From Sphingopyxis sp. JAI108 (GTDB taxonomy: Bacteria > Pseudomonadota > Alphaproteobacteria > Sphingomonadales > Sphingomonadaceae), in NCBI RefSeq assembly GCF_013410105.1, contig NZ_JACCCJ010000001.1, positions 1,488,001-1,552,000 on the forward strand: a stretch of DNA of 64,000 bases, written 5' to 3'. Shown piece by piece: positions 7,694 through 59,893 of the stretch. The first letter of the stretch is position 1, and the number at the start of each line of letters is the position of its first letter. A program made the position numbers and the translations under genes. The notes under the pieces are model-generated. The model was not told where the DNA came from. It ran no database searches and saw only the letters and a list, made by a program, of their open reading frames with translations.

Positions 7694-7788
7694 TCGTCAT
7701 TACAAGCGCAGCGAAGCAATCTCCAGCCATCGGCGTGAACTGCCGCACGCTGGAGATCGCGTCGTCGCTTTGCTCCTCGCGATGACGG
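7694..7788. repeat. Family A palindromic repeat, copy 1
   Basis: About 95 bp with imperfect terminal inverted repeats (TTCGTCATTA... and ...GCGATGACG), enclosing a second inverted pair around CAATCTCCAG / CTGGAGATCG. Two further copies are seen at 32699-32793 and 55275-55368, all intergenic. The unit folds into a long hairpin, as expected of a non-autonomous palindromic element. Confidence 0.8.
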
Positions 7789-7790
7789 GT

Positions 7791-27632: not shown

Positions 27633-27706
27633 CGTCACCCCGGACTTGATCCGGGGTCCACAGCTACCGTTGCGTCCATGGATCCCGGATCAAGTCCGGG
27701 ATGACG
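27633..27706. repeat. Family B palindromic repeat, copy 1
   Basis: 74 bp with near-perfect inverted ends, CGTCACCCCGGACTTGATCC and its complement. Preceded by a conserved leader (GGGGTGGGGAGCGGACGGTG at 27600-27619) that also precedes copy 2 at 50133. Located after the kinase gene and before the convergent GST gene. Confidence 0.85.
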
Positions 27707-32698: not shown

Positions 32699-32793
32699 TC
32701 GTCATTACGACCCCGGCGAAAGACGGGGGAAGCAATCCAGGGCGGTTTAAGCTACTCTGGATTGCCGCGTCGCTGCGCTTCTCGCAATGACGG
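32699..32793. repeat. Family A palindromic repeat, copy 2
   Basis: About 95 bp, CGTCATTACGA at one end and CGCAATGACGG at the other, with the inner AGCAATCCAG / CTGGATTGC pair. Between the NDUFS4-like gene and the convergent DUF4170 gene. Confidence 0.85.
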
Positions 32794-32799
32794 GATTGG

Positions 32800-33015
32800 T
32801 TACTCGGCGTCCGGCTGCAACAGCTTGTGCAGATGGACGACGACATATTTCATTTCGGCATCGTCGACCGTGCGCTGTGCGGCGCTGCGCCACGCCTTTT
32901 CGGCCGATTTATAGTCGGGATAGAGGCCGACGACATCGAGGTTGGCGAGGTCGACGAAATCGAGACCCTGCGGATCGCTGACGCGTCCGCCGAACACGAG
33001 GTGCAATTTGCTCAT
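32800..33015 (-). CDS. DUF4170 protein
   Basis: 71 residues. LHLVFGGRVSDPQGLDFVDL and VVGLYPDYKSAEKAWRSAAQ are the recognisable parts of the small alphaproteobacterial DUF4170 family, always near this length and of unknown function. Ends with a conserved HLHKLLQPD. Standalone gene. Confidence 0.88.
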   Translation of the reverse strand: MSKLHLVFGGRVSDPQGLDFVDLANLDVVGLYPDYKSAEKAWRSAAQRTVDDAEMKYVVVHLHKLLQPDAE

Positions 33016-50088: not shown

Positions 50089-50383
50089 AGAGGTCGGTTT
50101 GGGGTGGAAGCGGACGGTCGCTCACCCCACTTCGTCATCCCGGACTTGATCCGGGATCCACGGCGGCGCTGAAGTCATGGACCCCGGATCAAGTCCGGGG
50201 TGACGCGGAAGGCAATATCCTCCCTGTCGTGCAGCGATGGGAAGGGGAGTGGTGGAGGGGCAGCGACGTCGCGCCATCAGCCGCCTCCGTCAGCGCTTCG
50301 CGCTGCCACCTCCCCATGGCTTCGCCACCGGGAGGATCAATGTCGGCAATCGGTCGAAACCGCCCATACCGATCGCCCGCAGC
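50089..50383. other. Intergenic region with hairpin repeats
   Basis: No gene. Holds the conserved leader GGGGTGGAAGCGGACGGTCG (50101-50120), the family B repeat at 50133-50205, and a further imperfect hairpin at about 50236-50338 (GGAGTGGTGGAGGGG arm and CCACCTCCCC arm). It separates the convergent porin and phoB genes. Confidence 0.75.
50133..50205. repeat. Family B palindromic repeat, copy 2
   Basis: 73 bp. Begins CGTCATCCCGGACTTGAT and ends with its near-complement; the centre differs from copy 1 while the arms are conserved, as expected of a hairpin-forming unit. Confidence 0.88.
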
Positions 50384-55252: not shown

Positions 55253-55274
55253 ATGGTCCTCGTCAAACCATCCC

Positions 55275-55368
55275 CGTCATTGCGAGGAGCGAAGCGACGA
55301 AGCAATCTCCAGCTATCGAAATGGCTGGACGCTTGCTGGAGATTGCTTCGCTTCGCTCGCAATGACGA
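55275..55368. repeat. Family A palindromic repeat, copy 3
   Basis: 94 bp with perfect 12-bp ends CGTCATTGCGAG and CTCGCAATGACG, plus inner AGCAATCTCCAG / CTGGAGATTGCT arms. Inside the pst operon between pstS and pstC. Confidence 0.92.
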
Positions 55369-56636: not shown

Positions 56637-59084
56637 CTACCGCAACCATCCTGTAACTTCAGCGGCGAGGGCAATTATGTCATTATCACGCGGGAACTTC
56701 CGGGTTGCTTCAGCCAAATGGGTCTTCACCATTGATGCATCGCTGTCCTTTAGGGTGGCGTTGCTCGGGAGTGACCGAATACCTTGAAATAGTACGGCAT
56801 AGGGGTGAACGCTCGACCGATTGCGCTGAGCTTCCATCGATATAGCCTCGCGAATGCTAGCGATCGCTTCCGAAACGATAGATTGATCGCCGTCCATCGA
56901 TATCGCTTGATAAAAAAGAATTTTTGCTAATGTTGTTAGCGTTAGAGGATGGTATTCGATCGAAACAGCATGACGGGCATGGCCAACTGCCAAATTTAAG
57001 TACCCCAAAGATTCTTCTGAAATTTCTTCAGTGGATTGATATTTGTAAAGATTAAGCAAGGCAACTTGTTCCCAATAGCGGGAGTTCCATCGCCACTCTT
57101 CCTCAACTGATTCGTAAAAATCTATAGATTTTTCATTGAGAAACTTTTCAACTACTTGATCAAGATCGAATAGCCTTGCGGCCAGCCTCGCTTCTGGCGT
57201 CCGCTGAACGATAGTGCGCCTGTTAACGCGGGGTGCTACTGCTTTCCCGAGGTTAATAAACACGTTCAACATCTCGTCTTGATTTTCCTGTGATGCCACT
57301 TCCAGCATCCGAGTTGCGAGTGTGCCATTGAGTGGAATTACGTAATTTCTTGCTTTGTCTTCAGCGTGGGTGAGCGGAAAGGGGTGGGCATTATTGAACT
57401 GCTGGTTGATACCTGCACCCGAAGACGAGGCGATCAGCAAATCAAATTTCACGCCGCTCTTTGTGCAATACTGTGCCAAGGCGGCCGTCAAATACCTTAC
57501 ACGATCAACCTTATTTCCAAACTGAAAAAGGGATTCAACAATCCGATCAAGCGGCCTCAAATCGTTCATTATACGACAGCAAGCGATTGCGATCGGATCG
57601 TCCTTCAATGCAGCCACTGATGACGCTTCATCATCAATAAACGTGCTGTCTCCAACGAGTCCGGCTTGAACATAAGTTTGAATTAATTGCCGCATTTCTC
57701 GATCACTTAGTTTTTCTGACTGTTTTACTGAGTAATCTTTTCCCGTTAGTACTTCTGTAACAAATTTCCGTCTATAAGACCGTTCTGCAGCCAGGAAAAC
57801 CAAATCCTTTTTTTCTGCAAGGGACAAAACTGCCTCAATTGAATAGACCTGATCTGCAAAGTCATCGACTATGACGAGGCACCGACCTGCGATATTGTTC
57901 AGCATGGAAGCGGTCAGCCGAGGCTCTAAGCGGCTCAGTGCTGAACAAGACAGGACGGTGGTGCCTTGACGCGCGAAGTCAAATCCCACGCGACGAAGTG
58001 CCGTGGATTTCCCGACCCCAACATGGTCGGATAAGAATATCAATCGCGAATCTGAGCGGCCGGAGAAGGCGTCCTCAACGGCCCTGACTAACGTGCTATT
58101 GACTGGACGAGAGATATCATACTGGAGGGTTAGATCGCTCCAACTTGGAACGTGCCCGAAAAAGAATCTGGGATCGTTGGCATTCGCCTCCGTCGCAGCG
58201 GGGACTTTTTCGAAATCTGAATAGAAGCTGCTGATATCGTGAGCGGTTGGCTCTTCGATAAAAATACTCTTTTCATCTTCCGTTACTAGATCTTGAGGTC
58301 TTGGTCTATTTATAACACTCGAGCTTATGAACTCTATAAAGTCTTCTGATGTACCGGAATATCGTAACAAATCCAAGCGTTCGCATTCTGTATCTGTTAC
58401 AATATCCCCGAACGGTTCAATAAGAATAGAAGGTCCTCGATCCAACCGGGATGTTGACTGTGATCTTAAGGAAAGGAAATAGTCCAAATCTGTTTCATCT
58501 AACGACGACCCCATAATTATAAAGGGTTCAGACGAGAGAAAATGGGATAGATTGACCATCCACGGATTCGAAGTTTTGATTATGTTGAAATAGGCGTCCC
58601 TCGAGAAGATGTATCCATCTTGGGGTCTTTGAGTGTGCCCATGAAGATGAACTATCTGGACGTTCGATCGATCGCCATTTTCCTCATATGTATCTCGATA
58701 ATTGTATATTTTTGGTATCTGATATCTATCAGCATTAGCGTATGCTGCCTCCAGCGCATCATCAATGTTTAAAGTGAATATTCGCTTCCAAAGGAATAGG
58801 GGAAGAGCTCGAAGCGCGGGGCCAGGTGTGCAGCCAGAGAATCTTGCTGTGACGTGCTGATCGACTTCGTCGGCTGTAAGAGTTTGATAAATTCTCTGAA
58901 GAGAATGACCTTCCTTTGCGCCCTTTAGCTTGCAAAGTTCGACGCGATACGCGTCAGCCAGCGGCAGCGTTTTCCCGTCGGCATTTGTCGAGCCAAGACT
59001 CGCGGCCGCTCCCAACAACAGATTATATTCTCCGGCCCTTAGGCTCGCGGCAAGTCGATCAAGTTGCTCGGGTGTCAATTTCAT
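56637..59084 (-). CDS. SIR2-like / P-loop NTPase fusion protein, putative anti-phage effector
   Basis: 815 residues in three parts. (1) Residues 1 to about 270: SIR2-like NADase fold with LLLGAAASLGS (22-32), TLNIDD with Asn106, HLHG with His148, and IIMGSSLDETDLDYF, the layout of defence-type SIR2 domains. (2) About 310-560: a STAND/AAA-like NTPase, Walker A HVGVGKST (Lys359), Walker B CLVIVDDF (Asp407/408). (3) About 560-815: helical, possibly TPR-like sensor. Known relatives degrade NAD+ on phage sensing; which signal is unknown. The DNA is far richer in A+T than its neighbours, codons are atypical, and no partner gene is present: a transferred, single-gene module. GGGGAG precedes ATG 59084. 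Confidence 0.78.
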   Translation of the reverse strand: MKLTPEQLDRLAASLRAGEYNLLLGAAASLGSTNADGKTLPLADAYRVELCKLKGAKEGHSLQRIYQTLTADEVDQHVTARFSGCTPGPALRALPLFLWKRIFTLNIDDALEAAYANADRYQIPKIYNYRDTYEENGDRSNVQIVHLHGHTQRPQDGYIFSRDAYFNIIKTSNPWMVNLSHFLSSEPFIIMGSSLDETDLDYFLSLRSQSTSRLDRGPSILIEPFGDIVTDTECERLDLLRYSGTSEDFIEFISSSVINRPRPQDLVTEDEKSIFIEEPTAHDISSFYSDFEKVPAATEANANDPRFFFGHVPSWSDLTLQYDISRPVNSTLVRAVEDAFSGRSDSRLIFLSDHVGVGKSTALRRVGFDFARQGTTVLSCSALSRLEPRLTASMLNNIAGRCLVIVDDFADQVYSIEAVLSLAEKKDLVFLAAERSYRRKFVTEVLTGKDYSVKQSEKLSDREMRQLIQTYVQAGLVGDSTFIDDEASSVAALKDDPIAIACCRIMNDLRPLDRIVESLFQFGNKVDRVRYLTAALAQYCTKSGVKFDLLIASSSGAGINQQFNNAHPFPLTHAEDKARNYVIPLNGTLATRMLEVASQENQDEMLNVFINLGKAVAPRVNRRTIVQRTPEARLAARLFDLDQVVEKFLNEKSIDFYESVEEEWRWNSRYWEQVALLNLYKYQSTEEISEESLGYLNLAVGHARHAVSIEYHPLTLTTLAKILFYQAISMDGDQSIVSEAIASIREAISMEAQRNRSSVHPYAVLFQGIRSLPSNATLKDSDASMVKTHLAEATRKFPRDNDIIALAAEVTGWLR

Positions 59085-59177: not shown

Positions 59178-59508
59178 ATGATCCTCATCACCGGCCACGT
59201 CATCCTGACCCCCGAGCATCGCGAGCGCAGGATCGCGCTCGGCGCCGAGCATAGCGCGCGGTCGCGCGGCGAGGCGGGGTGTCTGACGCATCGCTGCCAT
59301 GTCGATGTCGAGCAGCCCGACCGCCTCGTCTTTGTCGAGGAGTGGGCGGATATCGCCGCGGTGCGCACCCACGTCATCCCGGACTTGATCCGGGATCGCG
59401 GTGCCCGCATCCGCCGCCTTCGTCGCCGAAATACACGCCCTCTCGCCGCAGCCGCCGGTGATCCGGATTTATGCCGCCGAGGATATCACCGCGAAGCTGA
59501 TGGGGTGA
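59178..59508 (+). pseudogene. Antibiotic biosynthesis monooxygenase-domain gene, broken by a repeat
   Basis: Begins MILITGHVILTPEHRERRIA and reads as a small ABM-fold enzyme for about 65 residues (ending DIAAVRTH). Then about 25 nt of the family B repeat (59372-59396) shift the frame by one base. After it a different frame continues the protein (PASAAFVAEIHALSPQPPVI, then RIYAAEDITAKLMG) to a stop at 59508. The net insertion is about 22 nt. The intact gene would encode about 103 residues. Confidence 0.8.
59372..59396. repeat. Family B half-unit inserted in a gene
   Basis: CGTCATCCCGGACTTGATCC and five more bases, the same arm as in copy 2 at 50133. Contains its own inner dyad ATCCCGG/CCGGGAT. 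It lies inside the monooxygenase-like reading frame. Confidence 0.85.
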
Positions 59509-59893
59509 TATACCCCTCGCGCTTGCGGGACGGGCTTTTCCGCACCCCGGACCTGATCCGGGGTCCATCGACGTCGCGGCAGTGGATGCCGGATCGAGAC
59601 CGGCATGACCACAGGTCGGGCTTCCGCAAAAAAACGCTGTCCTACATTATCGCGCCGTGCCAGCGTCGCCGCCGCTCTTTCGCATAGTCGGCTTCCTCAC
59701 ACCGTTTTTCGTCCACGCGTCGTGCGGCGGGTATCATTATACCCGAGGGGAGCGTGAACTTTGTAAACTTTGGAATATTGTTGCGCGGGCGGCCCCCCCC
59801 GGCGCGGGCTTGATGGGGGGCGCGGGATCGTGAGGGCAGGGTGATCGGCCGCGGATCGCACCGGGCACGACAACAGCTTGATTGCGGGGGCAT
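59509..59893. other. Gene-free region with repeats and a promoter-like block
   Basis: No intact gene. Holds a diverged family B repeat (59543-59609), a hairpin GGGTAT-CATT-ATACCC (59729-59744), and tandem 9-mers GTGAACTTT and GTAAACTTT (59754-59771). The block resembles an operator/promoter for the truncated gene at 59894. Confidence 0.55.
59543..59609. repeat. Family B palindromic repeat, diverged copy
   Basis: Begins CACCCCGGACCTGATCCGG and ends GGATCGAGACCGGCATGACC; arms less well matched than in copies 1 and 2, so probably older. Confidence 0.65.

Follow-up and report, generated by a model that had tools for sequence, protein, structure and literature searches.

A single 24-nt arm of a CGTC-type REP, without a CCA tail, has likely been copied into a functional and dispensable gene of the antibiotic biosynthesis monooxygenase (ABM) family in Sphingopyxis sp. 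JAI108, inactivating the gene by frameshift, and the copying would have been carried out by an activity that acts in trans and uses TCG as its target. The arm lies in a 64,000-nt stretch of the genome (hereafter the window, and its source the window strain, G000). The preliminary description of this DNA had read a repeat as inserted in, and breaking, a gene; this reading is supported, and the stronger result is that the same gene and the same sites are used recurrently by single arms. CGTC REPs and intragenic REPs are already known, and what is new is the recurrent, site-specific insertion of single arms.

The broken ABM gene and its empty allele

The features of the window that bear on the insertion are the following:

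59178..59371, plus strand: 5′ part of the broken ABM-domain gene (PF03992), codons 1 to ~65; Pfam E 3.4e-9, 92% identity to the intact G003 gene over 65 aa
59372..59395, plus strand: single inserted CGTC-type REP arm, 24 nt, CGTC head leftward; exact family match, absent in the G003 and G005 alleles
59396..59508, plus strand: frame-shifted 3′ part of the ABM gene, with 36 codons starting at 59398 and a terminal TGA; residues 64–102, 85% identity
27633..27706, no strand assigned: head-to-head REP dimer of the same family, intergenic form, common to G003
50133..50205, no strand assigned: head-to-head REP dimer of the same family, intergenic form, common to G003
59538..59610, no strand assigned: diverged ordinary head-to-head REP dimer just 3′ of the ABM gene, also in G003; arms unlike the intragenic arm

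The ABM match runs in a single frame up to the repeat (Pfam residues 1–66, E 3.4e-9); from the repeat onward, a second frame takes over the match (residues 64–102, 85% identity), in agreement with the earlier statement that the protein resumes in a different frame, and the frame of the 5′ part continues as a 169-aa ORF without the ABM C-terminus. An intact 102-codon gene, corresponding to the empty site, is present in G003, which belongs to the same species as the window strain, and in the congener G005. The empty G003 allele reads CCCATTTCGCG, versus CCCA-CGTCATCCCGGACTTGATCCGGGA-TCGCG in the window, a net gain of 22 nt. The uninterrupted allele that the preliminary description had proposed seeking in relatives thus exists in G003 and in many congeners, with readable boundaries; an extra segment conserved in frame among relatives had been named as an outcome that would speak against insertion, and the +22 nt segment shifts the frame and is absent from G003 and G005. 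An assembly or sequencing error, the latter already raised at that stage, can practically be dismissed: the window genome is a 7-contig assembly, but the insert reproduces 26 nt of a known repeat without a mismatch, and comparable insertions are found in other genomes, including named public records.

Over 400 kb, 12 REP arms of the window strain could be compared with G003, and the ABM arm is the sole one missing there (the comparison omitted one G003 dimer, 2345559–2345629, whose flank fell outside). As one of 12 arms differs, REP movement appears to be rare. The flanks of the intergenic REP dimers in the window strain and G005 are too diverged for their junctions to be read. In the window strain, identity to G003 falls to 88–96% in the ABM region (local matches, 400-nt flanks), versus 98–100% at the other REP sites compared. 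A gene of defense-type architecture, encoding a SIR2-like and nSTAND NTPase protein, lies directly upstream of the broken ABM gene (56637–59084, minus strand); it was not found beside the G003 ABM copy, and divergence around the SIR2/nSTAND gene is raised. Because the ABM region is unusually divergent from that of the conspecific, the window insertion may have arrived with an ABM allele imported by recombination, and was not necessarily made in this lineage.

Structure and class of the inserted arm

The repeat arm of about 25 nt that had been recognized inside the ABM frame corresponds to a perfect 26-mer, CGTCATCCCGGACTTGATCCGGGATC, at the exact position 59372–59397. The arms at 27681–27706 and 50133–50158 match it perfectly, whereas no match is expected in shuffles of the window, and the whole 4.05-Mb genome holds 14 exact copies of the 26-mer and 40 copies within two mismatches. 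The insertion itself most plausibly comprises the 24-mer 59372–59395, because the TC at 59396–59397 is also present in the empty allele (TTTCG).

Folded as DNA, the intragenic arm forms an 8-bp stem with a 5-nt loop (−8.4 kcal/mol, z −3.2), and the stem closes with the T of the host TCG directly 3′ of it. The arm has the unpaired CGTC head (59372–59375) that characterizes the CGTC REP superfamily, and its 8-bp stem and 5-nt loop fall within the 8–9 bp, starting with A/T pairs, and the 4–5 nt of that class. The short unpaired tail of the superfamily, usually CCA, is missing from the intragenic arm and from the other ABM arms read; the other arms in the window carry it, so that the family possesses the tail and the intragenic copy is truncated. 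The adjacent dimer at 59538–59610 was considered as the source of the copy and rejected, since its arms differ from the intragenic arm. A second repeat family, of the CGTCATTGCGAG...GAAGCAATC type, is also present in the window, at 7694–7789, 32760–32801, and 55266–55368.

The ABM gene in Sphingopyxis

The ABM N-terminus was matched in 64 of 80 Sphingopyxis genomes, and 61 orthologous copies remain when G058, G075, and G078 are left out as too distant for orthology. These comprise 42 open full-length copies, five copies with an in-frame insert at V44, ten copies broken by CGTC REPs, and four copies that are otherwise altered or cut by a contig end (G019, G063, G007, and G068). A short ABM remnant with a REP, recognized by eye in G009, is additional to the ten broken copies and brings the number of affected genomes to 11. 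Intact copies are under purifying selection, with a median dN/dS of 0.25 over 666 pairs drawn from 37 of the 42 open full-length copies. The gene nonetheless seems dispensable, because 16 of the 80 genomes, including 12 of 70 near-complete ones, gave no match to its N-terminus. Among the close ABM relatives, 32 of 37 named genome loci belong to Sphingopyxis, and uvrA lies within ~2 kb of the gene in the window and in at least 13 loci read. Six ABM homologues from other genera, read by eye, contain no REP, and the stop codons present in two of the six are not REP-related.

Two inserts other than CGTC REPs occur in the gene. The V44 insert differs from the REP, adds 24 nt in frame, and is found in five species that form one group in the ABM tree (L056/G061, L057/G041, L059/G039, L060/G076, and L062/G077); it may be a tolerated protein insert. 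The C40 insert carries a stop codon and is common to two related species (L052/G019 and L069/G040). The idea that C40 and V44 represent other repeat families was dropped, as the core strings searched among 265 loci are confined to ABM copies.

A REP could in principle be tolerated in the same manner, as a repeat-encoded segment of the protein. The available portion of a survey of the CGTC superfamily describes RPE-4 (CGTC-4) and RPE-6 (CGTC-1), palindromic elements of Rickettsia that belong to this superfamily, as lying inside genes, where they encode amino acids within ORFs (Di Nocera et al., 2013, PMC3733652). For the ABM arms this explanation is very improbable: whereas the Rickettsia inserts keep the frame open, the ABM gene is broken by frameshift (+22 nt in the window) or by a stop codon that the REP itself supplies (G069), and the frame is kept only by the different insert at V44.

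Insertion positions across species

CGTC REPs occupy five codon positions of the ABM gene, with one orientation per position:

A23, reverse: G018, G067, and G040; also at the left border of the G060 and G045 deletions
E54, reverse: G040
H65, forward: G000, G018, G016, G038, G010, and G040
V74, reverse: G069, G040, and the second ABM remnant in G041
R16, reverse: the G009 remnant only, by eye and tentative

The most heavily affected copy is that of G040 (Sphingopyxis sp. L1A2A), in which four CGTC REPs and one further insert lie inside a stretch of ~400 bp. With 159 REP arms in its 3.7-Mb genome, simple arithmetic gives ~0.02 arms expected per 0.4-kb stretch, versus the four observed. The middle of the gene is gone in G060, where one hybrid REP is left, a state that would fit recombination between copies at A23 and V74. 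Two REPs within one ABM gene would expose it to erosion, by recombination or deletion between them.

Search for other target genes

Across the 80 genomes, 46 exact REPs are followed by TCG, and all of them were inspected. Seven lie in the ABM gene or its remnants, and the other 39 have the ordinary intergenic form, with a TC head in 37 and a partner arm 29–65 nt away in 34. The five single arms among these 39 (L151, L159, L267, L270, and L274) and 14 further loci showed no coding on both sides in a strict ORF test. Among the matches listed, 11 REPs with odd heads or odd tails look intergenic, frames having been translated for two of them. When 184 distinct arms, including 39 single ones, were screened by an ORF criterion, two ABM copies alone were flagged; the screen is strict and missed other ABM copies. 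Among the loci covered in the 80 genomes, a second gene with recurrent single-arm insertion was not found. The earlier proposal that the repeat is copied into genes, and is not just an intergenic relic, is strengthened by the separate-looking insertions in the same gene of other species, but its plural has to be narrowed, the ABM gene being so far the single instance.

These data also bear on the idea that a dead, unselected gene simply gathers REPs at the background rate. More than one insert is present in G018 and G040, as expected if a broken gene is without selection against more, and the lack of an N-terminal match in part of the genus points in the same direction. Such passive accumulation is nonetheless improbable, given the density in G040 far above background, the re-use of sites, the purifying selection on intact copies, and the uniformly intergenic form of the 39 TCG-followed REPs outside ABM.

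Independence of the insertions

In a 58-gene ABM tree, from which G060, G045, and G068 are omitted as too short together with three distant copies, REP-broken copies group with intact ones: G000 with G003 and G005, G018 with G030, and G067 with G001. In the same tree G040 groups with G019, which is broken by another insert but is intact at the four REP sites. At H65, the host flanks of G000, G018, and G040 (60 + 60 nt) are 93–94% identical to those of their best relatives, which are intact there, versus 68–84% to other REP alleles at H65. The H65 flanks of G016 are 95% identical to intact alleles and 90% to G038 and G010, and these three genomes were counted as one event at this position. The margins are small at A23 (92–94% to best relatives versus 87–90% to other REP alleles), and at V74 the flanks of G069 and G040 are 94% and 87% identical, respectively, to best relatives versus 85% to other REP alleles. 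The resulting minimum is four events at H65 and three at A23; E54 adds one, V74 one or two, and R16 tentatively one. Judged by tree position and flank comparison, at least nine insertions thus appear to be separate, with R16 excluded and V74 counted once. Precise excision would not readily account for the intact alleles, since these keep, as conserved codons, host bases that the insertions remove.

The insertions at A23 have identical boundaries in three lineages, with the same 5 nt lost; G018 and G040, besides both being filled at A23, have the same unusual loop, ACCCCGAT, at H65. These common features could reflect shared alleles, not repeated insertion, and in its general form this explanation holds that one or a few ancient REP-bearing ABM alleles, made once per site, have spread between species by recombination. 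The ABM region does turn over, as indicated by the absence of the SIR2/nSTAND gene beside the G003 copy and by the raised local divergence; G041 has both an ABM copy with the in-frame insert and a REP-bearing remnant; and the small flank margins at A23 and V74 point in the same direction as the common boundaries and loop. Spread of old alleles is nevertheless an unlikely account of the whole pattern, since the H65 flanks are, over 60 nt on both sides, far closer to intact relatives than to other REP alleles, the H65 insertions differ in their head boundaries and loop sequences, and the host background of the G040 insertion at A23 is GCCGC, as in the clade to which G040 belongs.

Junctions and site choice

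The tail junction has a constant location at each of the five positions. The host sequence there is TCG in most intact alleles, a motif that covers ~4% of intact-gene positions, both strands considered. TCG stands directly after 11 of the 16 ABM arms read; the five exceptions are G038 and G010 at H65 (TTG), G018 at H65 and G040 at A23 (GCG), and the G041 remnant (CCG). The clade of G040 reads GC for TC at A23, and the G040 arm ends in ...GGGG followed by that GC; the unit is therefore a 24-mer, CGTC...GGG(A/G), and the TC that follows comes from the host. The head junction is ragged, most insertions having lost 1–5 host bases, and ~9 at R16 by reading. The preliminary description had also called for a check for target duplication; comparison of the empty and filled alleles revealed no target-site duplication of the kind expected for IS-derived MITEs, and host bases are lost instead. 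The sites are re-used more than expected, with P = 0.003 for five or fewer distinct sites, given 10 events (R16 included) and 24 TCGs. Targeting of hairpin loops was rejected as unsupported, the stems at the sites (2–5 bp) being not clearly above the gene mean of ~3.4.

The tail junction could represent a 2-nt microhomology (TC), not a recognized target. This bears on an enzyme-free origin, in which the arms would be copied in when replication forks stall on palindromes, through template switching or microhomology-based repair, the GC-rich ABM gene being a fragile spot. Tail-end TC microhomology in 11 of the 16 arms, the small host deletions at the head end without target duplication, the lack of a Y1_Tnp match in most affected genomes (see below), and the presence of two other, unrelated inserts in the gene all agree with such an origin, which we consider possible but rather unlikely. 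Against it, site and orientation are fixed in separate lineages, insertion occurs at the same position where the background is without TC, and the stems formed locally at the sites are no stronger than the average for the ABM gene.

A putative activity acting in trans

Y1_Tnp, the domain of the RAYT/IS200 transposase family, was searched for in all 80 genomes and matched in 15, whereas REPs are present in 78, a distribution that fits the statement, in the portion of the superfamily survey at hand, that CGTC REPs have no dedicated transposase (PMC3733652). The number of REP arms per genome, counted at two or fewer mismatches to the pattern, ranges from 0 (G024 and G079) to 441 (G016), the latter genome having no Y1_Tnp match. 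Nine of the 11 affected genomes gave no match (G000, G069, G040, G018, G016, G010, G067, G060, and G045), among which G067 is 73% complete, and G038 and G009 gave one weak match each. Mobilization by a resident RAYT/IS200 enzyme was rejected on the basis of these nine genomes, and the enzyme responsible is probably not a RAYT encoded in the affected genomes.

In the favored reading, copying of a single tailless arm into the ABM gene, an activity acting in trans would recognize a short target consisting of TCG and its upstream context; the tail end of the arm would be joined precisely at TCG, and the head end would be sealed imprecisely. Seen from the other strand, the element would enter just 3′ of CGA. 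The polarity of IS200/IS605-type insertion is likewise target first, then element. Target-primed copying would also yield identical junctions, and the combination of a precise tail and a ragged head could arise by IS200/IS605-like insertion 3′ of CGA, by target-primed copying, or by template switching.

A more specific proposal, which is put forward tentatively and with some doubt, is that a so far undescribed, non-RAYT activity in Sphingopyxis inserts single CGTC arms target-specifically, 3′ of CGA and in a preferred upstream context, and that the ABM gene is its preferred coding landing site, hit at least nine separate times in the genus. If true, CGTC REPs would be active, singlet-based mobile DNA and not relics of a lost transposase.

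Relation to known REP systems

The Sphingopyxis REPs resemble the CGTC superfamily, as characterized in the accessible text of Di Nocera et al. (2013, PMC3733652), in their CGTC head, 8-bp stem, 5-nt loop, and alphaproteobacterial host, and further in the CCA tail of most intergenic copies, the predominance of head-to-head dimers, and, within a search for the Y1_Tnp family, the lack of a dedicated transposase; whether new copies still form is left there as a question. The same text records intragenic CGTC REPs, including some in genes of S. alaskensis, a Sphingopyxis, as well as REPs whose sites in recB nearly coincide between two Xanthomonas species, and considers it plausible that REP-inactivated genes are purged from the population (PMC3733652). 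The ABM insertions differ from the intragenic REPs covered in that text, which come without empty and filled alleles and without repeated single-arm insertion at the same nucleotides of one gene (PMC3733652). A literature search of limited depth returned no report of repeated site-specific REP insertion into one gene.

Like REPINs and the GTAG REPs mobilized by RAYTs, the CGTC REPs are short palindromic and probably non-autonomous mobile DNA, and the RAYT work, as far as its available text goes, describes recognition of the hairpin as single-stranded DNA (Bertels and Rainey, 2011, PMC3116915; Corneloup et al., 2021, PMC8266576). In the REPIN model, as given in the consulted part of that paper, movement is ascribed to the doublet, and singlets are regarded as defunct (PMC3116915). 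Unlike REPINs, the ABM insertions are single arms, and Y1_Tnp is unmatched in most of the affected genomes; in the window strain in particular, the cognate RAYT that accompanies RAYT-mobilized GTAG REPs was not detected by this search. The facing arms at H65 and V74 of G040 occupy sites that are filled singly in other lineages. Single-arm insertion argues against extending to CGTC REPs the REPIN view of lone REP arms as leftovers that do not move.

The ABM locus offers a concrete assay for the spread of CGTC REPs, since its alleles occur both intact and filled, its insertion sites recur across species, and its junctions can be read. It may be asked which feature of the genome correlates with insertion and what makes the cut at CGA.

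Further variation at the ABM locus

Second, truncated ABM copies lie 3′ of the full-length gene in four genomes (L057/G041, from ~+680 after the ABM start, L033, L028, and L117), suggesting replacement or cassette turnover. In L031 (G071), the uvrA frame is interrupted, ~760–860 nt after the ABM start, by what looks like a partial duplication or a misjoin, with no REP present.
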